Assembly: GCF_900107995.1 (NCBI RefSeq)
Contig: NZ_FNUM01000005.1
Location: 203,472-267,471 of the forward strand
Direction: 5' to 3'
DNA: 64,000 nucleotides
Origin: Alcanivorax sp. DSM 26293
GTDB lineage: Bacteria; Pseudomonadota; Gammaproteobacteria; Pseudomonadales; Alcanivoracaceae
Numbering within the stretch: the stretch's first letter is position 1; each line of letters opens with the position of its first letter. The position numbers were made by a program, and so were the translations under genes. Of this stretch, positions 1 through 53,339 are shown one piece after another. A model generated the notes under the pieces. The model was not told the origin of the DNA, did no database searches, and saw nothing but the letters and a program-made list of their open reading frames with translations.

Positions 1-50
1 ACAAGCTACAAGCTACAAGCTACAAGCTACAAGCTACAAGCTACAAGCTA
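1..50. repeat. Tandem 7-bp repeat (ACAAGCT unit)
   Basis: The first 50 bases are seven exact copies of the 7-mer ACAAGCT; the array may continue to the left of the window. It abuts the dispersed mosaic repeat that follows. On the other side of that repeat, near 345-362, degenerate copies of the same heptad appear in inverted orientation, so the array looks like one arm of a heptad-based inverted repeat. Related heptads with an AGYT core recur at several other intergenic sites in the window. Confidence 0.9.
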
Positions 51-366
51 CGCTCGGTTGGATAGGGAAAGGTTAGAAAGTTCCCGGTACCTTGGCGTTT
101 CTACGAAGCCGCTGTAGGAGTACCTCTTGAGGTGCGAACCGCGCTTGCGCGGAAATCGACCGTAGGGCGATCAGGAATATCAAGGCTCGACAGGTCTCCG
201 CAGAAACCATGGTGGATAGCCGTTGAGCTCTGCCGCCTCGCTACGCTCGGTTCGTCCCTCAAGAGGAACTCCTACAGACAGGCCCTCAGCCAGGCAGCGC
301 GGAGTCCTGTGGGAATTCATGAGGTACAGGAGCTTCTTCGCGCTGCAGCTTGTCGCTTGCCGTCAA
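51..366. repeat. Dispersed mosaic intergenic repeat, copy A (full length)
   Basis: This ~315-base non-coding element matches copy B (14036-14352) almost from end to end, and copies C, D and E in parts. Landmarks are CTGTAGGAG at 112-120, CCTCTTGAGG just after it, a GCGCTTGCGC hairpin, and a closing CCTCAAGAGGAACTCCTACAG inverted counterpart at about 258-278. The CTGTAGGAG/CTCCTACAG ends resemble the REP sequences of Pseudomonas. Small open frames across it show no protein-like composition and are not called. No transposase lies nearby. Confidence 0.85.
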
Positions 367-367
367 C

Positions 368-397
368 ATAAAAAAAGCCCGGCAAAGCCGGGCTTAA
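368..397 (-). terminator. Rho-independent terminator
   Basis: A perfect 9-bp stem (AAGCCCGGC, loop AAA, GCCGGGCTT) is followed on the minus strand by a run of T residues. It lies about 50 bases downstream of the secreted hypothetical gene at 444-746 and would end minus-strand transcription, possibly of the whole upstream operon. Confidence 0.88.
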
Positions 398-443
398 GGC
401 AGACCCCGTTTGGGGTAACAACAATCGAACCAGAATAACTAGC

Positions 444-746
444 CTAGATCAGGCGATTCCCTGTCCTCTGGTTTACCAGATGCAGATTCAGTTCCTGAAC
501 GCTGATGCCGTACTCGATACCGTCCTGGTCGTCATCGCGAAGTTTGATGGTTTCAAAGGCGTCGAAATGTACGGGGGTGCCGTGGACGCTTTGCTGGATA
601 TGCGGGCTGCGCGGCATGGCGGGAACAATGTCCGCAGAATGGGGCATATTGACGGAATGAACCGTTTGGGACGTGGGGCTCGGCAGATCAACAGCGACCA
701 AAATCAGCAAGCAACTGCACAGACACAATAAGGTCAGCGTTTTCAT
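444..746 (-). CDS. Small secreted hypothetical protein
   Basis: This 100-residue protein has a clear N-terminal signal peptide: a short basic start (MKT) and a leucine/cysteine-rich hydrophobic stretch over residues 4-19. The mature part is hydrophilic, contains a DDDQDG acidic patch and ends in LHLVNQRTGN. I recognise no domain. The ATG has a weak GGGATCA ribosome site 6 bases upstream. It is the last gene before a strong terminator, 206 bases downstream of ybeD. In many relatives ybeD is followed by lipB and lipA; they are not here, so this gene occupies an unusual position. The coding call rests on the signal peptide and placement only. Confidence 0.6.
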   Translation of the reverse strand: MKTLTLLCLCSCLLILVAVDLPSPTSQTVHSVNMPHSADIVPAMPRSPHIQQSVHGTPVHFDAFETIKLRDDDQDGIEYGISVQELNLHLVNQRTGNRLI

Positions 747-952
747 TTTTGTGATCCCGTTACATTCTTCTTATAGGAGGGACCATACGGGCACGCGGGT
801 ACCAAACCAATGGTGGCTTGGTGAGGCTTGCGTGTCGGGCTGTGACCAAGGGTTAAATTGTGTAATGGCGCCGGTGAAACACACAGGGAATGACAGCTTT
901 CGCAACCCGGTCCGGGATTTTGCTGCCAACCCTGCGTTTGGGGAGAGTGATG

Positions 953-1222
953 TCAGAGCGACATCTTCACGTGCGGGCACTCATTGAGCGCTTTGTAGAT
1001 GGCTTCCACCTGCTCGCGATTGCGCATGGTCACCTGGGCAGTGAAGGAAACAAAATTGCCTTTGCTACTGGGCTTGCGCGCCAGGTGGTTGTCAGCATCG
1101 AAGTCCTCAAGGTGTGTTTCAAGGATCTCGATTAATACGGTTTCCAGGGGTGAGTCCGCCAGGCCCATGACCTTCAGTTGCATATCGTGGGGAAACTCCC
1201 AGAGGTGTTCCTGAATCGCCAT
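953..1222 (-). CDS. ybeD: YbeD family protein (DUF493)
   Basis: This 89-residue protein matches the small YbeD/DUF493 family in length and in its typical N-terminus (EFPHDMQLKVMG) and C-terminus (VEAIYKALNECPHVKMSL). The fold is an ACT-like alpha/beta sandwich; its exact role is not established, although in enterobacteria it sits between dacA and the lipoate genes. Here it follows dat by 3 bases, with GGAGTAAGCC before the ATG, so it is translated as the distal gene of the cell-wall operon. Confidence 0.92.
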   Translation of the reverse strand: MAIQEHLWEFPHDMQLKVMGLADSPLETVLIEILETHLEDFDADNHLARKPSSKGNFVSFTAQVTMRNREQVEAIYKALNECPHVKMSL

Positions 1223-1225
1223 GGC

Positions 1226-2098: not shown

Positions 2099-2118
2099 GT
2101 CGTTTCCTCTGACAGTCT

Positions 2119-2152
2119 GACGCCTGGCGCCGCCAGCGGGGTGTCAGGCGTC
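2119..2152. other. Intergenic hairpin between dacA and dat
   Basis: An 8-bp perfect inverted repeat (GACGCCTG at 2119-2126, CAGGCGTC at 2145-2152) sits between the dacA stop and the dat start. No T-run follows on the minus strand, so it is more likely an mRNA stability or attenuation structure than a terminator. Confidence 0.45.
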
Positions 2153-2167
2153 GAGCATCAGGCGTGC

Positions 2168-3516: not shown

Positions 3517-4404
3517 TCAGGGCGTAATGGGCACCGGCCGTTCGAACCCGGCGTCGGCCATGGTTTGACGCACCTGTTGGCGTTGTTGGTCGTCCGTATA
3601 GGGGCCGATCCAGACGCGATGCAGCGCCTTGCCCGAGCGGATTTCGCTGCTCAGGCCCAGCTGTTCCCGCAGGCTCTGTTGCATGCGTTCTGCGGCAGCA
3701 CGGTCCTGAAAGGCCCCGGCCTGAAGAAACAGTCTTGGTTCGCTGCCGGTGTTCGGGGGCGGGCTGTCCACGGCGGCACGCACCGCCGTGGGTATTTTGC
3801 TTGCGGGCAGGGAGGGATCCGGGGTTGCACTGATGGTTTCCACTCTGACCCGGCCGGTGCCGGCCTGTTCAATCCCCAGCCGCACGGCGGCGGCCCAGGA
3901 CAGATCAATGATGCGGTCCTCATGGAAGGGGCCGCGATCGTTGATTCGAACTACCAGGCTCTTGCCATTATCCAGATTGGTGACGCGGGCATAAGTGGGC
4001 AGGGGCAGGCTGCGATGGGCGGCGGTGAAGCGGTACATATCGAAGGATTCGCCGCTGGAGGTACGGTGGCCATGGAATTTCTGACCGTACCAGGACGCCA
4101 GCCCCTCGGCTTGGTAGCCTTCGGCGCTGGGGAGCACCCGGTAGGTCTTGCCCCAGACACTGTAGGTATCCGGGTTGCCATAGCGGCTGCGGGGCTCGCT
4201 CTTGGGCACCGGTTCAGGCAGTTGTGAGACGTCCCGCCGTTCCTTCGGTGGCGTATCCTGGTCCATGCTGTAGCGGTCTGACCCCGGTGCTCCGTTTTTG
4301 ACAGTATCGTCGGGGACGCTATTGCCGGAGGAAGAAGGGCCCGGGGTGGTGGCGCAGGCGCCCAGCAGCGTGCAGGTGGCCAGCGCCCATGCCAGTCGCA
4401 TCAT
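3517..4404 (-). CDS. rlpA: Septal-ring lytic transglycosylase RlpA, lipoprotein
   Basis: This 295-residue outer-membrane lipoprotein cleaves stem-less glycan strands. The lipobox is LGAC with Cys17 as the lipidated residue. A double-psi beta-barrel domain spans about 95-190 (GLASWYGQKFHG, RTSSGE, INDRGPF, DLSWAAA), and a SPOR domain that binds denuded glycan occupies about 222-292 (LQAGAF to the end). The start codon shares an A with the mltB stop (TAATG), so the two are translationally coupled. The order mltB-rlpA-dacA is conserved in related bacteria. Confidence 0.95.
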   Translation of the reverse strand: MMRLAWALATCTLLGACATTPGPSSSGNSVPDDTVKNGAPGSDRYSMDQDTPPKERRDVSQLPEPVPKSEPRSRYGNPDTYSVWGKTYRVLPSAEGYQAEGLASWYGQKFHGHRTSSGESFDMYRFTAAHRSLPLPTYARVTNLDNGKSLVVRINDRGPFHEDRIIDLSWAAAVRLGIEQAGTGRVRVETISATPDPSLPASKIPTAVRAAVDSPPPNTGSEPRLFLQAGAFQDRAAAERMQQSLREQLGLSSEIRSGKALHRVWIGPYTDDQQRQQVRQTMADAGFERPVPITP

Positions 4405-5447
4405 TAGTGGGTCTCCAGGGCTGCAGCGATCTCTCGAGACAGTTGTAGCACGGCCATGGCGTAGAGGCGACTGTGGTTGTAGCGGGTAATGACGTAGAAA
4501 TTATCGGTGGCCAGCCAGAACTCGGTGCCTTGCAGGCCTTCCAGGTCCAGCAGGGCGACACGGGTGTCTCCCGGCAGATCAAAGCAGTATTCGCTCTTTA
4601 CGCCGCCGCCTTCGCAGCTGATTGGCGACACCTGCGCCTGGCGGGCCTGATCCAGGGTGAAAGATGGCTTGTAGCCTTTTTTCGCCAGCGGTTGATAGCC
4701 ACTGCCTTCCACACGAGCGCGGGCCGCCACCGGCAGGCCCGGCTGCCAGCGATGCTCATGGAAGTAGTTGGCCACGGAACCGATGGCATCCACCGGGTTG
4801 TTCACCAGGTCGGTGACGCCATCGTTGTCAAAGTCGACGGCATAGGCCTGGTAGCTGGTGGGGATAAACTGGCCATAACCCATGGCGCCGGCGTAGGAGC
4901 CGGTGATGACGTTGGCATCGATATGGGCCTTTTGCTCCAGCTCAAACAGGGCTTTGAGCTGCTTGCGGAAGAAGCTGGCCCGCGGCGGGTAGTCAAATCC
5001 CAGGGTGGCCAGGGCGTCCACCACCCGGTAGGAGCCCATATACTGCCCGTAACGGGTTTCCACGCCGATGATGGCCAGGATGATTTCCTGGGGAACCCCA
5101 TAGGTCTGTTCGGCCCGGGCCAGGGTATCGGCGTGTTCGCGGTAAAATTCCACCGCTTTCTGCACCCGGCTCTCCTGCAGGAAGATTTTCTGGTAAGTCG
5201 CCCAGGTGTGGGTTTTTTCCGCCGGACGGGCAATGGACTCCAGAATTTTCGGCTGGCATTCGGCACTGCCGAGCACTTGGCGAATACGGGCCTCATCACC
5301 GCCTTCGGCCACCAGCTCACGAATCATGGTTTTGGCCAGATCCCGCTGCAGGTAATCATTGTTTTGCGGGCAGGTATGCTCAGCCAGGCTCGGCAGGGAT
5401 GTACAGAGCAGTGCTGTGGCCAGAATGGCTTGATAGGAACGACGCAA
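4404..5447 (-). CDS. mltB: Membrane-bound lytic murein transglycosylase B
   Basis: This SLT-family enzyme cleaves the MurNAc-GlcNAc bond with formation of a 1,6-anhydro end. The catalytic glutamate lies in GVETRYG, and GAMGYGQF and PTSYQAYAVDFDNDG are typical of MltB. I chose the TTG at 5447: GGAGAT lies 5 bases before it and it yields a clean signal peptide (RRSYQAILATALLCTSLPSLA). An in-frame ATG at 5477 would add ten residues, and further upstream the frame runs into rodA and a heptad repeat. No lipobox is seen, so the protein may be soluble in the periplasm. Confidence 0.92.
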   Translation of the reverse strand: MRRSYQAILATALLCTSLPSLAEHTCPQNNDYLQRDLAKTMIRELVAEGGDEARIRQVLGSAECQPKILESIARPAEKTHTWATYQKIFLQESRVQKAVEFYREHADTLARAEQTYGVPQEIILAIIGVETRYGQYMGSYRVVDALATLGFDYPPRASFFRKQLKALFELEQKAHIDANVITGSYAGAMGYGQFIPTSYQAYAVDFDNDGVTDLVNNPVDAIGSVANYFHEHRWQPGLPVAARARVEGSGYQPLAKKGYKPSFTLDQARQAQVSPISCEGGGVKSEYCFDLPGDTRVALLDLEGLQGTEFWLATDNFYVITRYNHSRLYAMAVLQLSREIAAALETH

Positions 5448-5520
5448 AGGGTGATCTCCTGTTTTCGTTATATCCATTGACCGCGTTGTGGCGGTTTTGT
5501 GCCCGGCTGGATGAAAAAGG

Positions 5521-5615
5521 CGAGTTACGAGTTGCGAGTTGGGAAGAGCGAAGAGCAACACCGTTTTTTTCAGGGTTTTCGCTTCTCGCAACTCGCTCCT
5601 CGCTTCTAATAACTC
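5521..5615. repeat. Heptad inverted-repeat element between rodA and mltB
   Basis: The left arm (5521-5559) reads as 7-bp units GAGTTAC, GAGTTGC, GAGTTGG, GAAGAGC, GAAGAGC. The right arm (5575-5615) is the same type of repeat in reverse complement, including GAGTTGC and GAGAAGC units. The loop is about 15 bases with a T-run. The right arm begins inside the last codons of rodA (its TAG stop is part of a heptad), so the element abuts the gene end exactly. Confidence 0.8.
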
Positions 5616-6751
5616 ATCAGTCGCCGATGGGTGTGAATCGACATGAGCATGCCAAAGCTGGCCAGCAAGGTAACGATAGAGGTGCCGCCGTAGCTGATCA
5701 GGGGTAACGGTACCCCCACCACGGGTAAGAGTCCGGACACCATGCCGATGTTCACAAAAATATAAATAAAAAATGTCATCGTCAGGCTGGAAGCAAACAG
5801 GCGGGAAAAGGTGTCCTGTGCCTGCCAACTGATAAAGAAACCCCGTCCCACAATCACCAGATAAACCATCAGCAACAGGGTGACGCCCACCAGACCGAAC
5901 TCTTCGCTCAGGACGGCCAGGATGAAGTCGGTGGAGGATTCCGGCAGAAAATCCAGACGGGACTGGGTGCCGTCCAGCCAGCCCTTGCCATCTACGCCGC
6001 CGGAACCGATGGCGGTTTTCGACTGGATAATGTTCCAGCCGGTACCCCGCGGGTCGGCTTCCGGGTTCAGGAAGGTATCCACCCGGTTGCGCTGGTAATC
6101 GTGCATGACAAAGAAGTACATCAGCGGCGCGGCGGTGACCACCAGCAGTACGGCCACGGCGATCAATCGCCAGGACAGCCCGGCCATGAACAGCACCACC
6201 AGCCCGCTGGCGGCAATCAGGATGGCGGTACCCAGATCCGGCTGCATGCCGATCAGGGCGGCGGGGATTCCCAGCAATGCCAGGGCAACCAGTACATCCA
6301 TGAGCTTGGGTGGCAGGGTGCGTTCACTGAAGTACCAGGCGACCATGGCGGGCACCGCCAGTTTCATGGCTTCAGCGGGCTGGAAGCGGCCGATGCCGGG
6401 AATGCTGAGCCAACGCTGGGCGCCTTTGGCTTCCGTGCCGGCCACCAGTACCAACACCAGCAGAAACAGGCCGGCGGTATAAAGAAACGGGGCCCAGAAC
6501 CGGTAACTGCGCGGAGGAATCTGGGCCAGCAGGAACAGTGCGGTGAGTCCGGCGCCAAAACGGATGCACTGGCGCACGACCATCTCCATGCTTTCGTCGC
6601 CGGCACTGTAAAGGACAGCCAGGCCACCAAGCATCAATACCATCAAGCCCGCCAGCAAGGGGGCATCCAGGTGCAGTCGCATGGCCAGCCCCGGAGACAG
6701 TGTGGCTCCGGTCTGGCCCGGCATCTGACGGATATATTCGCGCTGGCTCAT
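5606..6751 (-). CDS. rodA: Rod-shape SEDS glycosyltransferase RodA
   Basis: This 381-residue polytopic membrane protein polymerises lipid II in the elongasome together with PBP2. About ten hydrophobic segments and the SEDS motifs are present: YFSERTLPPK in the middle, RNRVDTFLNPEADPRGTGWN in the large periplasmic loop, GKGWLDGTQSRLDFLPE, and the C-terminal GVPLPLISYGGTS. The ATG overlaps the mrdA stop by four bases (ATGA), so the partners are co-translated. Its 3' end merges into a heptad repeat, so the last residues (MSY) may have been replaced by repeat sequence. Confidence 0.97.
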   Translation of the reverse strand: MSQREYIRQMPGQTGATLSPGLAMRLHLDAPLLAGLMVLMLGGLAVLYSAGDESMEMVVRQCIRFGAGLTALFLLAQIPPRSYRFWAPFLYTAGLFLLVLVLVAGTEAKGAQRWLSIPGIGRFQPAEAMKLAVPAMVAWYFSERTLPPKLMDVLVALALLGIPAALIGMQPDLGTAILIAASGLVVLFMAGLSWRLIAVAVLLVVTAAPLMYFFVMHDYQRNRVDTFLNPEADPRGTGWNIIQSKTAIGSGGVDGKGWLDGTQSRLDFLPESSTDFILAVLSEEFGLVGVTLLLMVYLVIVGRGFFISWQAQDTFSRLFASSLTMTFFIYIFVNIGMVSGLLPVVGVPLPLISYGGTSIVTLLASFGMLMSIHTHRRLMSY

Positions 6752-11646: not shown

Positions 11647-12936
11647 ATGGCCATTCGCTACCAGGAATACACCCGCTCCGCCATTAAAGCTGCCCCGTTT
11701 CAACTCTGGGTGGGCCAGTGGCGTATTGATTACCTGGCGTTCTCGCATCCGGATAATGCCCACAAACCGCCGTTGCTGGTGGTGGGCGGCGCCTTCCAGA
11801 ACTTCACTTCCTACAAGTACTGTGTTGAGCGTATCTACCAGGATTTCCCGGTGGTGCTGGTGGATCTGCCCTCTCTGGGCAATAACACCCAGATTGCCCC
11901 GGATTTGAGCATGGAGGATCTGGCGGACCTGCTGTACGAATTCACCTGCCAGTCCCGCCTCGAGAAAGTCCACCTGATGGGCCTGTCGTTGGGGTCCGCC
12001 GTTGCCAGCACCTTTGCCTACAAGTACCCCCGGGCCACCGAGAAGCTGATTGTGGCGGGTATTGTTACCCGTCCGCGCAAGAGCTGGCGCATGCTGGTGG
12101 AAGAATCCGTGCGTGTCCTGGAACAGGGACGCATGGATGAATTCAGCCAGGCGGTGGTGCTCTACCTGGTCAACTACGACAAGATGAAGGAAACCGGCAT
12201 TACGCCCACGGCCCGCAAGCTGTTCTACCGGCAGATGAAGCAGCTATCCGACAATGAGCGGGAGCGCTACAAGATCAACGGGCGGCGTCTGTTGTCTGTG
12301 GAAGGGCTGTTGGGGTATCCGGAATGCGACACCCTGGTGACTACCGGCGAGTTCGACAGCTTTACCCTGCCCTGGGAAAACGCCTCTTTTGCCGAAAAGT
12401 GTCCCAATGCCCAGTTCACGCTGATCAAGGGGGCGGATCACCTGCCGCAGCTGGAAAAGCGGGAAGTGTCTCTGGACCTGTTTTCTACTTTCTTGCGGGG
12501 CGAGTCACTGGAACGGGTCCAAGGCATCCGCCGTTTCGGCAAGGGGGAATACCAGCGTATCGAGCGCCGTCGTGCCGAGCGGCTGGTGCCGTGCAACAAC
12601 CACGGCTATGTGACCAGCGAATCCCGGGTGGGCGACCGCTTCCGCTTCAACAAGCCGGTACAGGTGGTGGACATCAATTTCTTTGGTTGTCTGATCAAAC
12701 TGAGCGAGCCCGGTTTTTCCATCGCCGATCACGCCCGTGACTGCACGCTCTACATGGAAAGCCCGGAGCTGAAACTGGAGCTGCTGGTGTTTGATTACGA
12801 CGACGCCGGTTACCTGCGCTGCCTGTTCAAGCACGGCAATATCCAGGCCGCAGAGCGATTCACCGAGCTGCTGAAAAACAGCGAGTATTTCCTGCACCAG
12901 GACAGCGAAGGGAATGTGCATCGCATTTATGGATGA
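11647..12936 (+). CDS. RhlA-like alpha/beta hydrolase fused to a PilZ-like domain
   Basis: The 429-residue protein has two parts. Residues 20-285 are an alpha/beta hydrolase with nucleophile elbow GLSLG (Ser114), acid Asp237 in GEFDSF and His265 in GADHLPQLE. Several stretches resemble RhlA, the 3-hydroxyacyl-ACP acyltransferase that makes the lipid part of rhamnolipids (GGAFQNFTSY, VDLPSLG). Residues about 300-420 look like a PilZ domain: RRAER at 308-312 matches the RxxxR c-di-GMP motif and DINFFG at 342-347 is a variant of DxSxxG with Asn for Ser. GGAG lies 11 bases before the ATG. The gene is monocistronic and ends before a terminator. The fusion suggests an acyl transfer or ester hydrolysis step controlled by c-di-GMP; substrate is unknown. 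Confidence 0.82.
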   Translation: MAIRYQEYTRSAIKAAPFQLWVGQWRIDYLAFSHPDNAHKPPLLVVGGAFQNFTSYKYCVERIYQDFPVVLVDLPSLGNNTQIAPDLSMEDLADLLYEFTCQSRLEKVHLMGLSLGSAVASTFAYKYPRATEKLIVAGIVTRPRKSWRMLVEESVRVLEQGRMDEFSQAVVLYLVNYDKMKETGITPTARKLFYRQMKQLSDNERERYKINGRRLLSVEGLLGYPECDTLVTTGEFDSFTLPWENASFAEKCPNAQFTLIKGADHLPQLEKREVSLDLFSTFLRGESLERVQGIRRFGKGEYQRIERRRAERLVPCNNHGYVTSESRVGDRFRFNKPVQVVDINFFGCLIKLSEPGFSIADHARDCTLYMESPELKLELLVFDYDDAGYLRCLFKHGNIQAAERFTELLKNSEYFLHQDSEGNVHRIYG

Positions 12937-12940
12937 AAGA

Positions 12941-13091
12941 AGCAATTAAACGTTAATAATGAATAATTAATAACGCGCGCCTAATTCTTTCTTGGCTGAA
13001 ACAGAGAAGCCGCGCCCAGAGACTGGGTGCGGCTTCTTTTTTAGGTCCTGATTTTTTTAGTTATTAATTATTCATTATTAACTATTAATTC
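12941..13091. repeat. AT-rich heptad inverted repeat enclosing a terminator
   Basis: Arms at 12952-12974 and 13060-13082 are a perfect 23-bp inverted repeat; beyond this the match continues imperfectly outward for about nine bases. Each arm reads in 7-bp units of the type AGTTAAT, AATGAAT, AATTAAT. The ~85-base loop holds the terminator at 13006-13042. The element separates two convergent genes. Confidence 0.85.
13006..13042 (+). terminator. Rho-independent terminator
   Basis: The stem GAAGCCGC..CCCAG pairs with CTGGG..GCGGCTTC around the loop AGA, with one mismatch, and is followed by seven T residues. It terminates the RhlA-like/PilZ gene. Confidence 0.9.
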
Positions 13092-13939
13092 TTCCCCACG
13101 GTTGCTTCCATGATTCTGACCATGGGATTCCCCCGCGTTTTCGGAATCGGTAGCTTGCCGTAGTAGTCCGCCGGGTTGTGGATGGTGAGGTTGTGAAAGC
13201 CAAGGGAATGAAAGTGATCCACGGCTTCCATGTCGGAGTGGAAGTGGAACCCTACCTGGCTGCGGGACACAGTGCCCAGCATGCCACCCAGCACCTTGAG
13301 TGTGCGGTAGAAGGGCATGCCCTTGTAGAGCGGGTAATTGTCGGTGAGATAAGTGCCCCGAGGAAAAACGGTGAGGGCGCTGGCCAGCTTGCGCCAGAAG
13401 TCGGAAATCACCTCCAGCGGGAAGTAGTTGACCAACCCTTCGGTAATCACCACCACAGGTTTGCTCTGGTCCAGTTGGCCCAGCACATGATCCAGACTCA
13501 GTTCTCCGTCTTCCGCGAAGATATTGATCGGCTGCACGCGATGACGCTCGCTCAGAACACCGTGCTCTTTCAGTAGTTGCTGCTTGCGCCGGGCCATATC
13601 CGGCAGATCCGTTTCGATATAGGTGAGCTGCGGGTATTGCTGGCAGAAACGGTGGCCACGGGGTGACAGGCCACAGGCGATCTCCACCACCTGCGTTACC
13701 CCGTCGTTGATCAATTGATGAAGCCGATGATCAATCAGATGGTGACGCTGCAGCAGAAAGGTGCGGATGTTGCCGCCGACCACATGGCGACCCACGTACT
13801 CGAAGGGGGCCAGGGCGCCATAAAGAAAGGCGCCGCCGCGGGTGCGAAAGAAGGGGGCGGAGATGCCGTCACGGGTCCATACATGGCCGGTGTACAGGGC
13901 GGTAAAGCTGATGGATGAAGTATCCCGGGGTTCACTCAT
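13085..13939 (-). CDS. Class I SAM-dependent methyltransferase (leucine carboxyl methyltransferase type)
   Basis: This 284-residue protein resembles the LCMT/PPM1-like group of bacterial O-methyltransferases. Motif I is VEIACGLSPRG at about 93-103, followed by YIETDLPD at about 116-123, the acidic end of strand 2 that binds the SAM ribose. VVVITEGLVNYFP fits the motif around strand 4. Its substrate is unknown. The ATG at 13939 has no strong ribosome site. It is single, convergent with the RhlA-PilZ gene, and shares with it the AT-rich inverted repeat that ends right at its stop codon. Confidence 0.85.
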   Translation of the reverse strand: MSEPRDTSSISFTALYTGHVWTRDGISAPFFRTRGGAFLYGALAPFEYVGRHVVGGNIRTFLLQRHHLIDHRLHQLINDGVTQVVEIACGLSPRGHRFCQQYPQLTYIETDLPDMARRKQQLLKEHGVLSERHRVQPINIFAEDGELSLDHVLGQLDQSKPVVVITEGLVNYFPLEVISDFWRKLASALTVFPRGTYLTDNYPLYKGMPFYRTLKVLGGMLGTVSRSQVGFHFHSDMEAVDHFHSLGFHNLTIHNPADYYGKLPIPKTRGNPMVRIMEATVGKN

Positions 13940-14021: not shown

Positions 14022-14358
14022 TGGCAAGCTACAAGCTACGCTGGTGGGATAAGGAAAGACTGGAAAGTTCCTCGTAGTCCGCAATTTCTACGAAGCCGCT
14101 GTAGGAGTACCTCTTGAGGTGCGAACCGCGCTTGCGCGGAAATCGCCCGCAGGGCGATCAGAAATCTCAGAGCTCGACAGCTTCCAGAAAGAACGGCGGA
14201 TAGATTTTGGCCTCTCTTGCTTCGCTACGCTCGGTTCGTCCCTCAAGAGGAACTCCTACAGATAGAGGCCCTCAGCCTGGCAGCGCGGAGTCCTGTGGGA
14301 ATTCATGAGGCACAGGGCCTTCTTCGCGTTGCAGCTTGAAGCTTGTCGCTTGCAGCTA
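14022..14358. repeat. Dispersed mosaic intergenic repeat, copy B (full length)
   Basis: This non-coding region between the methyltransferase and holA aligns with copy A from the heptads GCAAGCTACAAGCTACGCT (14022-14040) through CTGTAGGAGTACCTCTTGAGG (14099-14119), the GCGCTTGCGC hairpin and the closing CCTCAAGAGGAACTCCTACAG (about 14241-14261). It ends in inverted heptads (GCAGCTTGAAGCTTG, then CGCTTGCAGCT) by 14356. The outer heptads therefore act as terminal inverted repeats. It stops three bases short of the holA stop codon. Confidence 0.85.
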
Positions 14359-18397: not shown

Positions 18398-18454
18398 TCA
18401 CCGGTCTGCACCCGAAACGTGTCGGCTGGGTAATCATCGCGAGCGGGAGTGCCC

Positions 18455-19069
18455 ATGGCGCTGACCTACCTGGTACTGCTGGTGCTGGTGGGGGGTACCT
18501 TGCCGGCCGTGGTCCGCAGTCTGCTGCCCCCGCTGCCACGGCGCATTACGGGTATTACTCCCCAGGCGGTGGTGGTGCTGGGTGCCGGGCGGCGCCAGCG
18601 CAATGGCCAGTTTTCCCTGACCACCCGTGGTCTGAGACGGTTACAGTTGGCGGCGGAACTGGCCCACGAGCATGGCTTGCCGCTGCTGGTCAGCGGTGGC
18701 ATCAGCGGCACGCCCCATGCGGATGATGAACCCACTGAGGCCCAGCTGATGGCCGAGCTGGTGCGCCGGCGCTGGCCAACCATGACAGTGCTGGAGGAAG
18801 GGGAAAGCCGTAATACCTGGGAAAATGCCGTGCACTGCGGCGAGTTACTGGGGCAGCGCGGCATCGACGAGATCATCCTGGTCAGTGACCGCTCCCATCT
18901 GCCCAGGGCATTACTGTGTTTTCAGAGCCAGGGGGTGATGGCTCAGGCCGCCTGGCGCAAGCGGCTGCCAAAACAGGAATGGGTGCCTTCCGCCGGGGCC
19001 TTATCCATGGTGCCGGAGATCTGGTACGAGTGGCTGGCGCTGGTGTGGTATCACCTGCGGTATCTTTAG
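18455..19069 (+). CDS. YdcF/ElyC-like DUF218 membrane protein
   Basis: This 204-residue protein has one N-terminal hydrophobic segment (ALTYLVLLVLVGGTLPAVV) followed by a DUF218 domain. AVVVLGAGRR, LPLLVSGGIS, EGESRNTWENA and ILVSDRSHLPRA are the conserved motifs. Family members (ElyC, SanA, YdcF) are linked to envelope integrity, but the reaction is unknown. GGAG lies 5 bases before the ATG at 18455; a GTG two codons upstream is an alternative. It is monocistronic and followed by a heptad inverted repeat. Confidence 0.85.
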   Translation: MALTYLVLLVLVGGTLPAVVRSLLPPLPRRITGITPQAVVVLGAGRRQRNGQFSLTTRGLRRLQLAAELAHEHGLPLLVSGGISGTPHADDEPTEAQLMAELVRRRWPTMTVLEEGESRNTWENAVHCGELLGQRGIDEIILVSDRSHLPRALLCFQSQGVMAQAAWRKRLPKQEWVPSAGALSMVPEIWYEWLALVWYHLRYL

Positions 19070-19090: not shown

Positions 19091-19185
19091 CAAGCTGCAG
19101 AGGTAGTTGCGAGGTAGGAGTTGCGAGGAGCGAAAGGCGATACGGGTTTGCATTTCGCAACTCGCAACTCGTAACTCGCTGAATG
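19091..19185. repeat. Heptad inverted-repeat element
   Basis: The left arm contains units such as GTTGCGA, GGTAGGA, GTTGCGA and GGAGCGA (19105-19140); the right arm (about 19151-19185) is TTTCGCAACTCGCAACTCG-type reverse complement heptads. The loop is about ten bases (TACGGGTTTG). It separates the convergent YdcF-like and SulP genes and may act as a bidirectional hairpin. Confidence 0.8.
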
Positions 19186-19202: not shown

Positions 19203-20954
19203 CTAGGGTGAGGCGTCAGGCTCTTCCTCCCGCAAACTCTCCGGCGCCAGCACTTCCATGGCCTGATAGTGACTCAGATATACCCTGCCGGTAAGCACCT
19301 TCTGAAAGTCAGTTTTTATCAGCACGTCCATCACTGGACCCTTTACGTTGGAGAGGTTCAGGGTCACGCCGGCGTCCTTCAATCGTTCGTTCAGGCTTTC
19401 CAGACTTTCCACGGCGCTGGCATCCAGATGGTTGATGCCGGAGCAATGCAGCACCACATGCTGAATCTGCGGGTGGGCCTGGGCCTCGTCGTAGATACGG
19501 TCTTCCAGGGTGCGGGCATTGCCAAAATAGAGGGATTCATCCACCCGGATGGAGAGCACGGCCTCGGTGAGCTGGACGCTGTGCCGATCCATGTTGCGAA
19601 AATGATGGGTGCCGGGAATCCGGCCCAGTTCGGCCACGTGGGGCTGACTGGTACGCCACATGAACAGCGCCACGGACAGCACCACCCCCAGCAATAATCC
19701 GCTTTGCACATTGATCAGCAGCACCCCGACCAGGGTGGCGGCCATGGCCAGGGCATCCGGTCGGCTGAAGGCCCACAGGTGTCTCAGCTCAGACAGATTG
19801 ATCAGTGGCAGGATGCCAACCACGATGATGGCCGCCAGGGAGGCCAGTGGCAGCAGCTGGAACCATCCGGTAAAGAACAGCGCCACCAGGGCAATGCCGA
19901 TACCGGTGAGCAGGCCGGCCATGGGTGTGCGGGCGCCGGCCTGGTAATTCACCGTGGTGCGAGAAAAACTGCCGGTCACAGCAAAGGCACCGGAGAGGCC
20001 ACTGCCAATGTTGGCCAGTCCCAGCCCCATCAATTCCCGGTTGGCATCGACCCGTTCGCGACGTTTGGCGGCCAGGGCCTGGGCCAGGGAAATGGATTCC
20101 ACAAAGCCGATCAACGCCAGCAATGCGGCCGGGGTTATCAGGTCCTGCCAGTGCATGGGGTCCAGCCCGGGCAGGGAAAAATGGGGGAGCCCTGCAGGGA
20201 TGGAGCCGACCACGGCAAGACCATGGCTATCCAGCGACAGGGATGCGGTGAGCAGCGTGGTGACCAGCACGGCCACAATCGGTCCGCACTTGCTGATAAA
20301 GGCCACCAGCCAGCCGGGCAGCCGGGTGGCCTCAAGGGGGGCGGCCAGATATTTCGGGATCAGCAGGCAGGCAATGGCGACAAGGCTGATGCCCAGTGTC
20401 AGCCAGTGAGTCTGGGACAGGTTCTGGCCCAGGGTCTGCGCCAGGGTCACCAGCTCTTCGCCGGAGGCGTCGATGCGCAATAGGTGCTTGAGCTGGCTGG
20501 CGGCAATGAGAATGGCGCAGCCGCTGATGAAGCCGGTGATCACCGGGTGGCTGAGCAGGTTGGTGAGCCAGCCCAGCCGCAGGATGGCCATGGCTATCAG
20601 AAACAGCCCGGATAGCAGGCCCATGCCGATGGCCGCCTGGATAAACAACTGCGGATCGCCCTGGGCCAGGGTGCCCGCCGCAGAGGCAGTGATCAGTGAG
20701 GTGAGGGCGGCGGGGCCCACGGACAGGGTGCGACTGGTGCCGAACAGGGCGTAGAGAATCAGCGGCAGGATGCTGGCATAGAGCCCGGTTTGTGGCGGCA
20801 TGCCGGCAAGCATGGCATAGGCCAGCCCCTGGGGGACCAGCAGAATAGTGACAATGATGGCGGCCAGGGCATCCCCGGCCGCCTGCTCCCGGTTGTAGGT
20901 GGCGAGCCAGTCACTGGCCGGCAGCCAGCGAAAACGGCGGCCGGCCTCGGCCAT
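19203..20954 (-). CDS. SulP-family anion transporter with STAS domain (paralog 1)
   Basis: This 583-residue SLC26/SulP protein has about a dozen hydrophobic helices and a C-terminal STAS domain at about 450-560. The family signature PQGLAYAMLAGMPPQTGLYAS is near residues 43-63, and the mid-protein NIGSGLSGAFAVTGSFSRT is the second conserved segment. VEFVESISLAQALAAKRR is also typical. The ATG follows the DUF442 stop by two bases. As the last gene of a sulfide-oxidation operon it probably exports or imports sulfate, sulfite or another sulfur anion. It is clearly related to paralog 2, two genes upstream. Confidence 0.9.
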   Translation of the reverse strand: MAEAGRRFRWLPASDWLATYNREQAAGDALAAIIVTILLVPQGLAYAMLAGMPPQTGLYASILPLILYALFGTSRTLSVGPAALTSLITASAAGTLAQGDPQLFIQAAIGMGLLSGLFLIAMAILRLGWLTNLLSHPVITGFISGCAILIAASQLKHLLRIDASGEELVTLAQTLGQNLSQTHWLTLGISLVAIACLLIPKYLAAPLEATRLPGWLVAFISKCGPIVAVLVTTLLTASLSLDSHGLAVVGSIPAGLPHFSLPGLDPMHWQDLITPAALLALIGFVESISLAQALAAKRRERVDANRELMGLGLANIGSGLSGAFAVTGSFSRTTVNYQAGARTPMAGLLTGIGIALVALFFTGWFQLLPLASLAAIIVVGILPLINLSELRHLWAFSRPDALAMAATLVGVLLINVQSGLLLGVVLSVALFMWRTSQPHVAELGRIPGTHHFRNMDRHSVQLTEAVLSIRVDESLYFGNARTLEDRIYDEAQAHPQIQHVVLHCSGINHLDASAVESLESLNERLKDAGVTLNLSNVKGPVMDVLIKTDFQKVLTGRVYLSHYQAMEVLAPESLREEEPDASP

Positions 20955-27068: not shown

Positions 27069-28445
27069 GTGAAACACTATTGCAAGTACCATCCGGGGAC
27101 GGAGGCGCTATGGTATTGCAGCCATGATGGACTGCACTTGTGTCAGCAATGTGTGGAGAGCCGGGAAGGTAGCCTGACAGAGGCCCGTTGTCTGCTCTGC
27201 AACCAGGAGCTGCAAAGCACCGCGCAGGGTCAGGGTGGGCCGTTGTGGCGACAACTGGACCGGTACCTGCGTTACCCGTTCGCCCCATTGCTGTTGCCGG
27301 TGCTGCTGGTATGGGCGTTGCTGGCCGCGTTGGTGCCACCCTTGCCGGTGATGGTCCCGGTGGCTCTGTTGGGGGGCTTGCCGGCCTGGGGATTTGGCCG
27401 GGCGGTGATGGCATTGCGCAGTCACCCCGGCAAAGCACGCAAAATCGCTGTGCCGGGGTGGGACTGCCTGTCTGATATGGCAGGCTGGAGGGCGGCAATG
27501 CTGCAGGCATTGCCGGCGTTGATGGTGATGGTGCCCGCCGGCTTCATGCTGGTGTGGGTATCGGTGTCTGCAGGCTTGCTGATCGGTGCGCTGGGCTTGT
27601 TTCTGGTGCCGGCCTTCTGGCTGGCGATCCAGGTCCAGGGGGCGCAGCCCGGATCCTTTGCGGCAGCGTTGACCTACATCTTCTCGGCGCCCCGGGATTA
27701 TCTGGTCGCCGGGTTGTTGGCCTCTGTGGGTTGGTTGCTGGGGGTGGCGTTGGTGGCAGTGGCCGTGGATGTGATGCCGCTGTCGTTGGCCCAGGGGGTA
27801 GCGGGTGCGCTGGCTGCCCTCTGGTGGCTGGCGCTGGCTTGCCTGTGCGGCGATATCCTGGCCCGTCATGGTCGCCTCTGGGGGCTGGATCAAGGTGTAA
27901 GGAAAGCCAGTGCACCGCTGGAAGAGCGGCGTCAATGGGTGCAGCTTTGTGCCGGCCGCTTCGACAAAGTGCTATTGAGTACGGGCAAAAGCCTGACGCA
28001 TAAAGGCGCCACGGTGGCAGACTGGCAACGCTATGATCGCCTGCTGGAAATCACCGGCCGGGAGGATGAACGCCGCAGCCAGGCACCGGCCTATCTGGAA
28101 AAAATGGTGCTTGCTTCTGCCTGGTCCGAGGCGCTGGTGTTGCTGTCTCGTGAGCGGGAAATTACCCCCGGCTGGCTGCCCGCATCACCGTCCCTGCGTC
28201 TGGCTCTGGCCCGGGGTATTCACGAGCAGGCGCCGAAAATGGCGGTGGCGTTACTCAAGGATCTTCACGACCGACACCCGGACTTCAGCGAGTTGGGCGA
28301 CGCCTATCTGTTACTGGCGAAGATCCTGGCCGAGCAATTCGGGCTTGCCGGCAAGGCGGAACAGTATCTGCGTTTTGTGGAAAGCCAGTGCCGGGATGCG
28401 AAGCTGCGCAAGCAGGTGGCGGACTACCGCGCGGCGTGGGTGTAG
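27069..28445 (+). CDS. B-box zinc-finger membrane protein, unknown function
   Basis: The 458-residue protein has three parts. Residues 1-45 hold a B-box-like zinc site with Cys5, His8, Cys17, His19, Cys25, Cys28, Cys41 and Cys44. Residues about 65-265 contain five or six hydrophobic segments. The C-terminal 170 residues are helical and repeat-like (ISREDERRSQAPAYLEKM-type helices, DAYLLLAKILAEQFGLAGKAEQYL near the end), compatible with TPR units. The GTG at 27069 is preferred because GGGGG lies 7 bases upstream and it begins the zinc motif; an ATG at 27051 is possible. The neighbour on the other side of repeat C is a rhomboid-like protein with the same membrane-plus-TPR plan, so the two may work together. 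Confidence 0.75.
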   Translation: MKHYCKYHPGTEALWYCSHDGLHLCQQCVESREGSLTEARCLLCNQELQSTAQGQGGPLWRQLDRYLRYPFAPLLLPVLLVWALLAALVPPLPVMVPVALLGGLPAWGFGRAVMALRSHPGKARKIAVPGWDCLSDMAGWRAAMLQALPALMVMVPAGFMLVWVSVSAGLLIGALGLFLVPAFWLAIQVQGAQPGSFAAALTYIFSAPRDYLVAGLLASVGWLLGVALVAVAVDVMPLSLAQGVAGALAALWWLALACLCGDILARHGRLWGLDQGVRKASAPLEERRQWVQLCAGRFDKVLLSTGKSLTHKGATVADWQRYDRLLEITGREDERRSQAPAYLEKMVLASAWSEALVLLSREREITPGWLPASPSLRLALARGIHEQAPKMAVALLKDLHDRHPDFSELGDAYLLLAKILAEQFGLAGKAEQYLRFVESQCRDAKLRKQVADYRAAWV

Positions 28446-28862
28446 GGCTACGAGCGACGCTCGTTGGATAGAGAAAGGGCCGAGAGTTGCTCAAACTCCG
28501 AGCCTTCTTCGAAGCCGCTGTAGGAACGGAGCGCAGCGGAGTAACGCACGTTGTGCAGTGCGGCCCGAAGGGTGAGCGAAGCGAATAATACCTCTTGAGG
28601 TGCGAACCGCGCGTGCGCGGAAATCGACCGCAGGGCGATCAGGAATCTCAGGGTTCGACAGGTTTCAGAAGGAATGCAGGATCGATTTCAATCTTTGCCG
28701 ACTCGCTACGCGCGGTTCGCATGTCGCAGATCCCCCTTGGGGGCAAGCATAGCTCCTACATAAAGGAGAAAACCTCGCCAAGGCTCGAGTCGCGCCGCAA
28801 GCGACGCTGCTACAGCCTTTGGTCGCGGGTATGGCGCTGTTGCGGTCCTTCCCGTGTTCCCG
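28446..28862. repeat. Dispersed mosaic intergenic repeat, copy C
   Basis: This 417-base gap contains the family landmarks: GGATAGAGAAAGG near 28475, CTTCGAAGCCGCTGTAGGA near 28508-28526, CCTCTTGAGGTGCGAACCGCG near 28591-28611, then AAATCGACCGCAGGGCGATCAGGAATC. Between CTGTAGGA and CCTCTTGAGG it has an extra ~60 bases (GAGCGCAGCGGAGTAACGCACGTTG) that copy E also has. The right part differs from copies A and B. No gene is seen. Confidence 0.75.
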
Positions 28863-47810: not shown

Positions 47811-47820
47811 CGGTTTCCTA

Positions 47821-49657: not shown

Positions 49658-49732
49658 GGCACTATGCGTCAGGGGCACGCCTGCTCCCGGTAGCGGCGCA
49701 GGCATGGCCTATGACGTTGGGGGGAAAGCCCG

Positions 49733-49771: not shown

Positions 49772-49774
49772 GGG

Positions 49775-50095
49775 TCAGGCCATTTCTTCCAGCAGTTCCG
49801 GGAAGCGCTGGCGGAGAACTTCATAGCCACCATCCAGGCTGACCACATCACTGAATCCCTGCTCGCTCAGCCAGTCGGCGGCGCCCTGGCTGCTGTTGCC
49901 GTGGTAGCAGTAGATCACCAGGGATTTTTCCGGGGCGGTATCAGCCAGAAACGGCTCCACATTGGCCTGGGTCAGGTGGACGGCGCCGCGTAAATGGCCA
50001 GCGGCAAAACTGGCCGGGTCACGGATATCCACGAACAGGGCGTCGCCCTGGTCGAAACGGGTTTTGCCCTCATCCGGGCTGATGCGTTTTGCCAT
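49775..50095 (-). CDS. glpE: Thiosulfate sulfurtransferase GlpE (rhodanese)
   Basis: This 106-residue single-domain rhodanese transfers sulfane sulfur from thiosulfate to thiols or cyanide. The active-site loop [11 protein letters not shown] with Cys63 is the GlpE signature, and [15 protein letters not shown] is also typical. Its start overlaps the rhlB 3' end by 26 bases, so both are translated from one message. Sulfur chemistry links it loosely to the sulfide operon at 19-25 kb. Confidence 0.94.
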
Positions 50096-51326: not shown

Positions 51327-51470
51327 GTATTCGCTCAGTCTGAATGCAAGAGTCTGTGCCGATATTGGCACTGGCGGCACACAGCCGCGGGGCGGTAATC
51401 AGTCCACCCGTTCCTGCTGAAAACGGGGTATTGTAGAAAAAATAGCCAGCGCTGTCAGAGGATGTTTCTT

Positions 51471-51731
51471 ATGGGGTTGCTTCGCGGGGTTATTGTAGTG
51501 TTTTGGGTGGCAGTAGGGTTAGCCATTTTCCTGGATCTGCCGTCGCCCTTCGACCGTTTGCTGTTGGGGGCCGGGCTGGTTGTTGCGGTCCTGCATGCCC
51601 TGGAATGTATCGGCTTTATGGTATGGATTCGGCGGCGTGGGCTGTTTCACTGGCGCGACGCCTTGATGATCATGATCTTCGGGGTGGCCTATCTCAAGCC
51701 GAGAATGCGGACCCTGCGGCACACGGTTTAG
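51471..51731 (+). CDS. DUF1145 (YhhL-like) small membrane protein
   Basis: This 86-residue protein has two or three transmembrane segments (LLRGVIVVFWVAVGLAIFL and RLLLGAGLVVAVLHALECI) and the C-terminal FGVAYLKPRMR of DUF1145. Function is unknown. The ATG at 51471 lies 9 bases after AGAGG; an ATG three codons upstream is too close to it. It converges with the DUF938 gene, overlapping by four bases. Confidence 0.85.
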   Translation: MGLLRGVIVVFWVAVGLAIFLDLPSPFDRLLLGAGLVVAVLHALECIGFMVWIRRRGLFHWRDALMIMIFGVAYLKPRMRTLRHTV

Positions 51732-52312
51732 CCAAATACCAGTAGCCGGTTGTTGGCGGGCATTTCATGGTCGGCCAGCAGGTGGCGTTGCTGGCGGGCG
51801 AACTGTTCTACCACCCACTCCTGATCGCGAATGCCGCGGTCACCGTCACCCTCTCGCAGCCTCTGGTCGAACTGGCGGTTGGAATCGCTGGTGAATTGGC
51901 CCTGGTAGTTGAACGGGCCGTAGACCAGGAATTTGCCGTCCTCGGTCAAATGCTCACAGCCCTTGCGGATACAGGCTTCCACCAGTGGCTTGGCCATGAT
52001 GTGGAAGGTGTTGGCAGTAAACAGGTAATCGAAGTGGCCGGCTGGCCATTCGCCGGCAACGTCCAGCGCCAGCGGTGGCAGGGCCCGGTTGCCCGGATCA
52101 CTCTGCCACTGCCGGATATAGGGCAGGTTGGCGGCCACATCGGAAGGCTGCCATTGCAGATGAGGCAGTTGCCCGGACAACCAGGCCGCATGCTGGCCGG
52201 TACCGGCACCAATTTCCAACAAGGTACCCGGCGCCTGGCAGTGCTGCTTCAGCACGGCCAGGATCGGCGTCTTGTTGTTTTCGCAGGCCTGGGAGTAGGG
52301 GCGTTCTGTCAT
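51728..52312 (-). CDS. DUF938 SAM-dependent methyltransferase
   Basis: This 194-residue class I methyltransferase belongs to the DUF938 family. The start (ERPYSQACENNKTPILAVLK) is diagnostic and motif I is LLEIGAGTGQHAAWL. The later GPFNYQGQFTSDSNRQFD is conserved in the family. The substrate is unknown. Its ATG shares the A of the SDR-gene stop (TAATG), so the two are co-translated. Confidence 0.9.
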   Translation of the reverse strand: MTERPYSQACENNKTPILAVLKQHCQAPGTLLEIGAGTGQHAAWLSGQLPHLQWQPSDVAANLPYIRQWQSDPGNRALPPLALDVAGEWPAGHFDYLFTANTFHIMAKPLVEACIRKGCEHLTEDGKFLVYGPFNYQGQFTSDSNRQFDQRLREGDGDRGIRDQEWVVEQFARQQRHLLADHEMPANNRLLVFG

Positions 52313-53151
52313 TACTTCTTGTTCATGAACTTCTGGCCCATCACCATCAGACGCTGGTAGCTGGTAGGCAACAGCCGCTGCATGGTGTCGATCGCCAGGG
52401 CGTCAGAACCAATCAGTACCCGACGCTTGTTCTGGCGAACCCCCTTGAGGATGGTGCTGGCGGCTTCTTCCGGTGTGGTGCGGAACATCTTCTCGAAATC
52501 CGCTTTGGATTGCGCGGGATCGGATCCGGTGATGGCGGCCACATCATCGCTAATGCGAGCGGCCTTGGCGATGTTGGTCTTGATGCCGCCGGGATGAATG
52601 GACGTGGCGGAGACACCGCATTGTTCCATTTCCAGCTCCAGGCGCAGGGATTCGGTAAAACCGCGCACGGCGAATTTTGCCGCATTGTAGGCAGACTGAG
52701 TGGGAATGCCGATCAGTCCAAACACGGAAGACACGTTGATGATGTGGCCTTCGCCTGCTTCCTTCAGGTAAGGCAGGAAGGCTTTGGTGCCGTAAACCAC
52801 GCCCCAGAAGTTGATGTTCATCAACCACTCGAAGTCATCGTAGTTCATCTTCTCAACGGTGGCACCCAGGGCAACACCGGCATTGTTGAAGATCATGTTG
52901 GCATAGCCGAAATGGTTGACCACGTCATCGGCAAAATCATAAAACGCCTGACGGTCTGCCACGTCCAGTTTGCGGGTCATCAGGCGGTCTTCAGCCAGAC
53001 CCAGCAGATCGGCGGTTTCTTTCAGGCCGGCTTCATTGATGTCAGACAGGGCCAGCTTGGCACCAGCGGACGCCAGTTCCTGAGCCAGAGCACGGCCAAT
53101 GCCGGAGCCGGCACCGGTGATAACGGCAACTTTGTCTTTGAAATTCTTCAT
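52312..53151 (-). CDS. Short-chain dehydrogenase/reductase
   Basis: This 279-residue SDR has the NADP-binding TGAGSGIG at 12-19, NNAG at 89-92 and the catalytic Ser141/142, Tyr155 and Lys159 (YNAAK). The long form with a helical C-terminal tail (LPTSYQRLMVMGQKFMNKK) resembles acyl- or retinol-type reductases acting on lipid substrates. AGGAG lies before the ATG. It forms an operon with DUF938. Confidence 0.92.
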   Translation of the reverse strand: MKNFKDKVAVITGAGSGIGRALAQELASAGAKLALSDINEAGLKETADLLGLAEDRLMTRKLDVADRQAFYDFADDVVNHFGYANMIFNNAGVALGATVEKMNYDDFEWLMNINFWGVVYGTKAFLPYLKEAGEGHIINVSSVFGLIGIPTQSAYNAAKFAVRGFTESLRLELEMEQCGVSATSIHPGGIKTNIAKAARISDDVAAITGSDPAQSKADFEKMFRTTPEEAASTILKGVRQNKRRVLIGSDALAIDTMQRLLPTSYQRLMVMGQKFMNKK

Positions 53152-53180
53152 GATGACTCCTGTATCCGCTTAATTCAGTC

Positions 53181-53339
53181 GCAAGTTGCAAGTTCAAAGT
53201 TGAAATACGCAGGCGCTGACAGTGCCAACGGAAAATCCCTGATCTGCGCCGTTACACGGTTGCTGCGCGGGCAGGGCATGTCAGTTTCAAACAAGCTGGC
53301 TCGCGCCTTGAAACTTTCAACTTTGAACTCTCAACTCAA
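53181..53339. repeat. Heptad inverted-repeat element with ~100-base loop
   Basis: The left arm (53181-53205) reads as heptads GCAAGTT, GCAAGTT, CAAAGTT, GAAA. The right arm (about 53309-53339) is the inverted set (TTTCAACTTTGAACTCTCAAC). The loop of about 100 bases has no open frame of note. The 318-base gap 53152-53469 also holds the 20-bp palindrome at 53419-53438; no gene is seen. Confidence 0.8.

Follow-up and report, generated by a model that had tools for sequence, protein, structure and literature searches.

How can a repeated DNA sequence keep its step while its letters drift? This question is raised by a 64,000-nucleotide stretch of the genome of Alcanivorax sp. DSM 26293 (contig NZ_FNUM01000005.1, positions 203,472 to 267,471; hereafter the window), in which an earlier note, made from the letters alone, had pointed to imperfect tandem repeats of seven bases (heptads) at seven intergenic places. 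Three ideas were offered there to account for a fixed period with a changing unit: a protein with seven-base spacing, a copying mechanism that maintains the period, and a structural role of the stem. Here, most of the repeats are found to be the arms of intergenic palindromes, usually located near the 3' ends of genes, and the two arms of a palindrome change together between species. In one Alcanivorax genome, most arms are lost and the centre is kept.

A seven-base period in the window and the genome

Arrays were scored by the number of self-matches out of 21 at a given offset, and a lag-7 array is one that reaches a strict cut of at least 16/21, or a loose cut of 14/21, at offset 7. Under the strict cut the window contains nine lag-7 arrays, and every other lag from 4 to 15 yields at most two. 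Under the loose cut, ten single arrays were found, whereas 200 Markov shuffles gave 3.8 on average and up to 11, so that at this cut single arrays carry little weight by themselves. The earlier note had named random simulation as the test that could overturn it, and the inverted pairs passed this test: the window has two, whereas none arose in any of the 200 shuffles and none was found at lags 5, 6, 8, 9, 10 or 11.

The source genome (coded G000; 3.7 Mb in 22 contigs, with C7 and C17 denoting contigs and L-numbers denoting extracted loci) has Alcanivorax sp. Bin_5, a metagenome-assembled genome (97% protein identity), and A. jadensis T9 (93%) as its closest named relatives at one locus. Over 864 kb of G000, 89 lag-7 arrays were found and none after local shuffling, which bears out the proposed period. 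Lags 2, 4, 5, 8, 10, 11, 13 and 16 give 0-3 arrays, the codon-multiple lags 3, 6, 9, 12 and 15 give 9-21, and lag 14, a multiple of seven, gives 40. A lag-7 excess is likewise present in stretches from two other species, and the arrays recur in G000 and in other Alcanivorax, the recurrence for which the note had asked its own and related genomes to be searched. In addition, a whole-genome count of the pattern AGYTNNNAGYTNNNAGYT returned 161 forward and 156 reverse matches, against 23 and 10 for a reversed-pattern control. Tandem units of 7 bp therefore exceed chance by far, as in tandem heptamer repeats, that is, long simple sequence repeats (SSRs) resembling the short tandemly repeated repetitive sequences.

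Polarized arms and their classes

Not every array keeps the AGYT core that the note had ascribed to all of them, but the core is strongly enriched. Across 1.66 Mb from three species, the consensus heptad includes AGYT in 129 of 184 arrays, an unbiased count of the core (1000 letter shuffles: mean 22, maximum 39), and arrays at lags 6, 9 and 12 include it in 0/37, 2/44 and 1/35 cases; the window array at 12941-13091, however, is largely AATT. Nearly half of the 55 arrays without AGYT are AACAGTG (13) or AATAATT (12), 25 in total. Unit profiles were built from arrays selected for AGYT, which biases the core positions of the profiles, and runs of more than 7 units were excluded. Lag-7 arrays of GACGTCN or ACGCCNG type, also without AGYT, were seen in G000 at C7:370405, 401914 and 521594 (L046, L048 and L054).

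Most core runs are short (207 of 256 have just 3-5 units), and they are built from many different units rather than from one favoured unit in near-perfect repetition. Long perfect arrays do occur in some AGCT and AGTTTCG classes; about 40 perfect AGTTTCG copies stand in G005 at C5:260748-261024. Long AGCTTGT-type arrays may be mis-sized in assembly, because a 10-N assembly gap lies within one of them (L037:17685-17694).

The arms have a polarity: the left arm is (AGTTNNN)n and the right arm is (NNNAACT)n, around several types of centre. Among 77 neighbouring pairs from 14 sequence sets, counted with arrays of 60 bp or longer left out, 65 are in the left-AGTT/right-AACT order, none is strictly reversed and 12 have one unclear arm, which supports the statement that most arrays occur as inverted pairs. 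In 46 of 76 pairs, each arm has CGCG or GCGC at its inner end; trimmed pairs span 70-209 bp, with 50 of 76 falling within 140-169 bp. A resemblance to integron attC sites was considered, but the arm polarity is opposite to that of the attC core sites.

Four classes can be distinguished. Class A has the unit [GA]A[CT]AGT[TG], a length of about 160 bp and the centre AAGAGGCCGCGCCC..GGGCGCGGCCTCTT. Class B, of similar length, has N-AAAGTT and N-CAAGTT units and, by reading, often CGCGGGCAYGGCC. Class C has a CGAGTT unit and a length of about 90 bp, and motifs of repetitive extragenic palindromes (REPs) lie nearby at 10 of 26 sites; class D consists of AGCT-core arrays that flank REP-like sequence in the copies read. 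Arms and centres can occur in other combinations, as in the class A centre with D-type arms near C7:629260. In G185, which belongs to another genus of the same family, elements of about 330-380 bp have heptad arms nested in as many as three layers. At L162:5390-5770 and its neighbours, nested palindromes with arms of different classes, likewise in up to three layers, have an RNA fold of -273 kcal/mol.

Concerted change of the two arms

Between a methyltransferase-like gene (Pfam LCM) and a convergent hydrolase gene, the class A architecture is found at nine orthologous loci (the window, L068, L069, L070, L072-L075 and L080, of which L075 and L080 are near identical). The units AATAATT, GATAATT and AACAGTT all occur at this one site, and the number of heptads also differs. 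Other relatives have a plain small hairpin (L077 and L078) or, by eye, a tRNA-like sequence (L076) here, and the remaining relatives have no array within the 230 bases read. Arm identity is 0.825 within a locus versus 0.68-0.70 between loci, with 7 of 36 between-locus pairs as high as the lower within-locus value.

Covariation points in the same direction. Twenty-two class A elements, hand-picked from 37, some end-trimmed and with orthologous pairs included, were aligned over 31 arm pairs, and standard pairing is found in 91.1% of cells. In 68 cells both sides have changed, versus 33.1 in shuffles (0/500 as high), and six slid versions give 0-12 such cells. The fifth heptad position is A-U in 12/22 and G-C in 9-10/22, in each of four heptads. 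At C7:261190, left heptads 2-4 equal right heptads 1-3, i.e., the arms are shifted by one heptad in register. A design with one mismatch per heptad was considered and rejected, as the poorly paired column 4 reflects at least partly such a one-heptad register shift.

Along C7:1-680000, 66 lag-7 sites were compared with other species, 26 being comparable with G004 and 16 with G016. Sites 261190 and 383090 are conserved; sites 51000, 148902, 170624, 246630 and 257496 have another class or version; and sites 138876, 239791 and 386937 have no array in the other species. Site 257496 shows four different versions among six species. The G004 site orthologous to C7:246630 has an insert resembling a miniature inverted-repeat transposable element (MITE), with ends GGAGCCTCTGAATAACTCC, inside an AGCTTCT hairpin. 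Length changes were read at six hand-picked places, four of which differ by 91, 43, 15 and 15 bp, corresponding to 13, 6, 2 and 2 heptads, with one extra base beyond whole heptads in three of the four. About 15 AGCTACG copies in one of G004 and G016 face 2 in the other.

Arm decay with a retained centre

The genome G001 (3,120,143 bp), which has the size of A. borkumensis SK2, gave no match in a scan for AGTTNNN x4. It is nevertheless not devoid of the elements, a reading we rejected: the class A covariance model finds 44 matches there (both strands), with centres mostly intact and arms decayed. The best E value is 8e-12, compared with about 1e-29 to 1e-33 in the other 16 Alcanivorax genomes. 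Nine of the 10 G001 loci examined retain the centre, and their arms have mostly lost both the period and the pairing. When sites were selected by the centre only, both arms are lag-7 at 0/7 G001 centres versus 27/39 centres of 12 other genomes (p 0.0009), and arms are complementary at 0/7 versus 29/39 (p 0.0004), both p values ignoring kinship and the 39 centres including orthologues. The seven centres come from 71 kb and were partly chosen by the model, which favours intact arms, so that this bias opposes the claim. Some periodicity is left in G001, with medians of 12 and 10 of 21 versus 8.5 and 7 at random places. Since the centre is kept without the arms, the arms are not required to keep the centre, and some arm-maintaining agent seems to be absent from G001.

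What maintains the arms?

The anatomy of the elements, the joint change of their arms and the loss in G001 are taken as established, and the mechanism is proposed. Our preferred explanation, held tentatively and with doubt slightly outweighing confidence, is that the arms are kept by a copying process made up of slippage and arm-to-arm template switching, which has since stopped in G001. The host would retain the centre, with its terminator-like stem in class A, and mutational copying would keep the arms heptameric and complementary. Slippage within a tandem array would gain or lose heptads and carry an altered unit through the rest of that arm. The palindrome could also fold while it is being replicated, which would let the polymerase switch template and copy one arm from the other, at times one heptad out of register; period and pairing would therefore persist while the unit drifts. 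In G001 the process would have stopped, leaving the arms to decay. Template switching that perfects quasipalindromes is an established process in Escherichia coli (PMC7202029). It would likewise make two arms identical from within, although it is a process and not an element. Among the three ideas of the note, copying is the best supported, because of the concerted change of units, the near-whole-heptad steps in length and the decay of G001 arms around a kept centre. For the AGYT core and the shared polarity, the best account is that the arms descend from a common source, together with some sequence preference.

Several observations weigh against copying. Column pairs changed on both sides number 15 versus 12.4 in shuffles (52/500 as high) and pair types number 25 versus 27.1, neither being clearly raised, and the covariation rows include orthologous pairs. 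The fifth length comparison differs by 13 bp, and for the sixth only one genome yielded the place. Two species compared at C7:151151 differ in every heptad of the left arm and have the same right arm, and arm-to-arm copying is not universal, because one class D element has different units on its two sides. Neighbouring heptads share the free base in only 9/59 cases in class B (0.29 expected, p 0.011) and in 4/27 cases among CA|AGTT units (0.39 expected, p 0.006), a result that fresh slippage would not produce. Of the eight other unit groups profiled, six have neighbours more alike than expected, one has them equally alike and one slightly less alike. The tenth G001 locus, L182, is partly heptad (lag 7 20/31, arm identity 27/38) and lacks the centre. 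Finally, copying leaves the step of seven itself unexplained.

A protein or enzyme working in 7-bp steps, of which none was found, is possible and would be the more surprising answer. In its specific form, the heptads in both arms of gene-end hairpins would be rewritten by an activity that acts in trans in steps of seven nucleotides and that the A. borkumensis lineage would have lost; we regard this as possible but on the unlikely side. If true, period and pairing would be inherited and sequence would not.

Could the palindromes instead be MITE-like mobile elements? The heptad arms would then be terminal inverted repeats (TIRs) bound by a transposase with subunits every 7 bp, and the variants would reflect transposases that differ in specificity. 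Binding to unspaced 7-bp heptads is a property of ribbon-helix-helix omega repressors. Class A copies are dispersed with inverted arms in 17/17 Alcanivorax genomes (44 to at least 150 model matches each, both strands counted), and at many sites they have arms, CGCG and centre in common. The four versions at site 257496, the CGCG or GCGC boundaries, the fixed arm polarity and the excess of the AGYT core over shuffled letters all fit as well. So does distribution: across the order, class A matches at E<=1e-8 are limited to 3/116 genomes, all Alcanivoracaceae (G000, G185 and G322), in a search with stricter filters that lose weak matches. AGTTNNN x4 is present in 13/249 Pseudomonadota genomes, with the highest counts in Alcanivoracaceae (109 in G185, 44 in G000) and the third in G208 (25). 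On the other side, unit and heptad number change inside an element that stays put. The comparison of empty and occupied sites suggested by the note did yield six near-empty orthologous sites, but by eye none shows a clean insertion with target duplication, and no autonomous copy was seen at 12 places read by eye, no systematic search having been made. Taken together, we consider mobility of this kind unlikely.

A related proposal assigns the upkeep or movement of the arms to REP-associated Y1 transposases (RAYTs), in the manner of REPINs, the hairpins formed by paired REPs. G001, with its decayed arms, is the sole genome of 17 without a Y1_Tnp match, and the number of Y1_Tnp matches rises with that of AGTT-heptad hits (rank correlation rho 0.59, p 0.013, phylogeny ignored). 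The CT at which TnpA-REP cleaves (PMC8266576) is present on one strand of AGYT. Class C elements lie between REPs at C7:89743 and 110505, and a GTAG motif of the GTAGGAGC type occurs within 60 bp of 10/26 class C sites, compared with 2/53 in class A, 2/19 in class B and 3/29 in class D. Classes C and D can thus ride with REP elements. The heptad elements themselves, however, are not GTAG-tagged short palindromes like REPs and REPINs, as far as the GTAGGAGC-type motif, the only one sought, can tell. Nor do they flank RAYT genes as REPs and REPINs do: G000 has four RAYT-type genes (L039:6235-6678, L039:9880-10551, L100:7208-7513 and L101:7746-7982), each of which adjoins its own REP class, with ordinary REPs as immediate flanks in 4/4. 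One heptad pair (L101:6662-6828) lies about 0.9 kb from the last of these, on C17, and among 12 RAYT loci of relatives only 2 have a lag-7 array within 1.5 kb, in neither case next to the gene as a flank.

The correlation disappears for class A matches (rho 0.04, with counts of at least 150 at the top). Forty further genomes comprised 12 AGTT-positive, 26 hand-picked AGTT-negative and 2 of undetermined AGTT status; outside the genus, Y1_Tnp matches occur in 9/12 of the positive and 16/26 of the negative genomes. G208 has its 25 AGTT hits without a Y1_Tnp match, and G344 has one Y1_Tnp match without a class A match. The loss, moreover, rests on a single genome. A RAYT as direct writer of the heptads was therefore rejected, as REPs flank the RAYT genes and Y1_Tnp is absent from 3/12 AGTT-positive genomes. 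The note's call for a co-occurring nuclease or transposase was not answered by this family for the same two reasons, and a broader role of RAYTs appears improbable.

Selection by the host for long hairpins, as terminators or as protection of mRNA 3' ends, would make unit drift ordinary compensatory evolution. Genes were called with a simple codon-usage caller, considering intergenic regions of at least 60 bp, leaving out arrays without the core and counting orthologous sites separately in each of three species. Core sites are intergenic in 104/113 cases, and they occupy 44/157 convergent, 55/425 tandem and 5/162 divergent regions (chi-square p 7e-10). In tandem regions, the upstream stop codon is the nearer end of class A in 22/22 cases; it often lies within the array, as the median distance is -6 bp. 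The window copy of class A contains a 15-bp stem, AGAAGCCGCGCCCAG-AGA-CTGGGTGCGGCTTCT, followed by T6 (13005-13042, + strand), seen by reading and in the fold and terminator-like by reading. A terminator function of the class A centre is tentative, because a simple terminator scan did not list this stem; the tail of the class A consensus is just T-rich. The A-U/G-C covariation agrees with host selection and with the note's structural role of the stem, but both are countered by G001, which keeps the centre and loses the arms. Furthermore, base pairing by itself needs no period of seven, class D arms need not match, and a looser classification puts 11 of 153 sites in divergent regions (48 convergent, 70 tandem, 24 coding or unplaced). 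Host selection alone is accordingly a doubtful account, with little probability in our judgement.

That the arrays are plain SSRs from slippage, paired only through palindromic cores, is very improbable: heptamers are reported to outnumber the other long SSRs in most genomes (Mrazek 2007, as cited in PMC4679880 and PMC4692102) and long perfect arrays exist, such as those of AGTTTCG in G005 and the unequal AGCTACG arrays of G004 and G016, but fixed polarity, CGCG boundaries, a common core and short class B arms with unlike neighbours all speak against it. Stop codons in all frames were also rejected as the cause of the period; by reading they fit classes A and B, but they fail for class C, and any period not divisible by three would serve.

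Copies in the window

Five of the seven places listed in the note are clear (1-50, 5521-5615, 12941-13091, 19091-19185 and 53181-53339), and two are weaker. The class A element (12944..13090) lies between convergent genes (11647-12936, + strand, and 13085-13939, - strand), with arms at about 12944-12975 and 13056-13090 of the AATAATT/AGTTAAT type, a covariance model score of 89.5 bits and an RNA fold z of -9.2. The class B element (53176..53342), with NNAAGTT arms, scores 37 bits with an RNA fold z of -4.4 and lies between an acyltransferase-like open reading frame (ORF; 53470-54210, - strand, named by eye) and a short-chain dehydrogenase gene (52312-53151, - strand).

There are two class C elements. 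One, with CGAGTTR arms (5516..5610), lies between genes assigned by Pfam to the RodA family (5606-6751, - strand) and to SLT_2 transglycosylases (4404-5480, - strand); its right arm contains the RodA stop codon, and its DNA fold z is -4.2. The other, with TGCGAGG/AACTCGC arms (19094..19184; DNA fold z -7.3), is 3' of an ORF (18449-19069, + strand) and adjoins the 3' end of a sulfate-permease-family gene (19203-20954, - strand).

Class D is represented first by the element at 1..365, recognized from Tandem Repeats Finder, related copies and a left-end alignment. It has a left array of ACAAGCT x7.3 (1-51) with the conserved left end, a REP-like TGTAGGAGTACCTC..GAGGAACTCCTACA region and a short imperfect right arm, GCTGCAGCTTGTCGCTTGCC, at 342-361. 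The second (14022..14358) had been said to have heptads at both ends; the right array (14329-14357, TTGCAGC/TTGAAGC, 4 heptads) holds up, whereas the left end has only about two (14025-14039, 2.1 heptads), around a REP-like interior. The place at 60690-60705 has two units, which would mean nothing by themselves; it is the alignment of its flank with the left ends at 1 and 14022 that makes it a class D left end of two heptads (60685..60800). A class D-like element absent from the note's list (28440..28719) has decayed heptads, GGCTACGAGCGACGCT, and a REP-like interior. A search of the window against Rfam 15 gave no matches at the gathering score.

Known heptamer repeats and significance

The note knew of no described equivalent, a statement that needs narrowing, since Xanthomonas is already described as having heptamers in inverted pairs (PMC4692102) and Nostoc as having hairpin stems made of heptamers (PMC4476775). 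GGGAATC repeats of Xanthomonas and GGGGA(T/C)T repeats of Nostoc (Rehm et al. 2015, PMC4692102) are the closest in layout: the Xanthomonas heptamers are intergenic and form 70 convergent inverted pairs in one xanthomonad and 75 in another, mostly between the same gene pairs in both genomes and with varying length and sequence. Their unit, however, is G-rich and was studied for G-quadruplexes, and the excerpt describes no common centre or case of decay; in Alcanivorax, AGYT is the commonest core and there are several centre classes. TAACTGA repeats of Beggiatoaceae, Cyanobacteria and Bacteroidetes (MacGregor 2015, PMC4679880) have a complement, TCAGTTA, that contains AGTT; they are mostly intergenic, and indels between two Cyanothece strains are mostly in 7-nt steps. 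In contrast to the Alcanivorax elements, with inverted arms, mostly at gene ends, and many units, these repeat one favoured unit directly; in the main genome most of them lie just 5' of start codons, and one repeat is indirect.

The P6b stem of the Nostoc tRNA-Leu intron (Kaasalainen et al. 2015, PMC4476775) is likewise a hairpin stem of degenerate heptamers (TDNGATT or NNTGAGT) that switches class at one locus and gains or loses 7-nt units, but it is a single intron locus and not a dispersed family. REPs and REPINs with their RAYTs, and TIR families with TIR-associated transposases (TIRYTs), share the form of dispersed intergenic palindromes (PMC3733652, PMC8266576). REP sequences are even nested with some class C and D copies, yet GTAG-type motifs are rare near classes A and B, and heptad arms are not the immediate flanks of the RAYT genes read. 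In the open-access literature, nothing was found on heptad arms in Alcanivorax, and no account was found that joins heptamer pairs with a conserved core, concerted arms and an arm-losing genome.

The pieces are thus already known separately, as intergenic heptamers, Xanthomonas inverted pairs and Nostoc intron heptamer stems. What the Alcanivorax elements add is a step that is kept throughout the genus while the unit changes, both arms changing together. Furthermore, one genome has lost most arms and kept the core, and the question of how the step is kept can therefore be tested by comparing A. borkumensis with its relatives.

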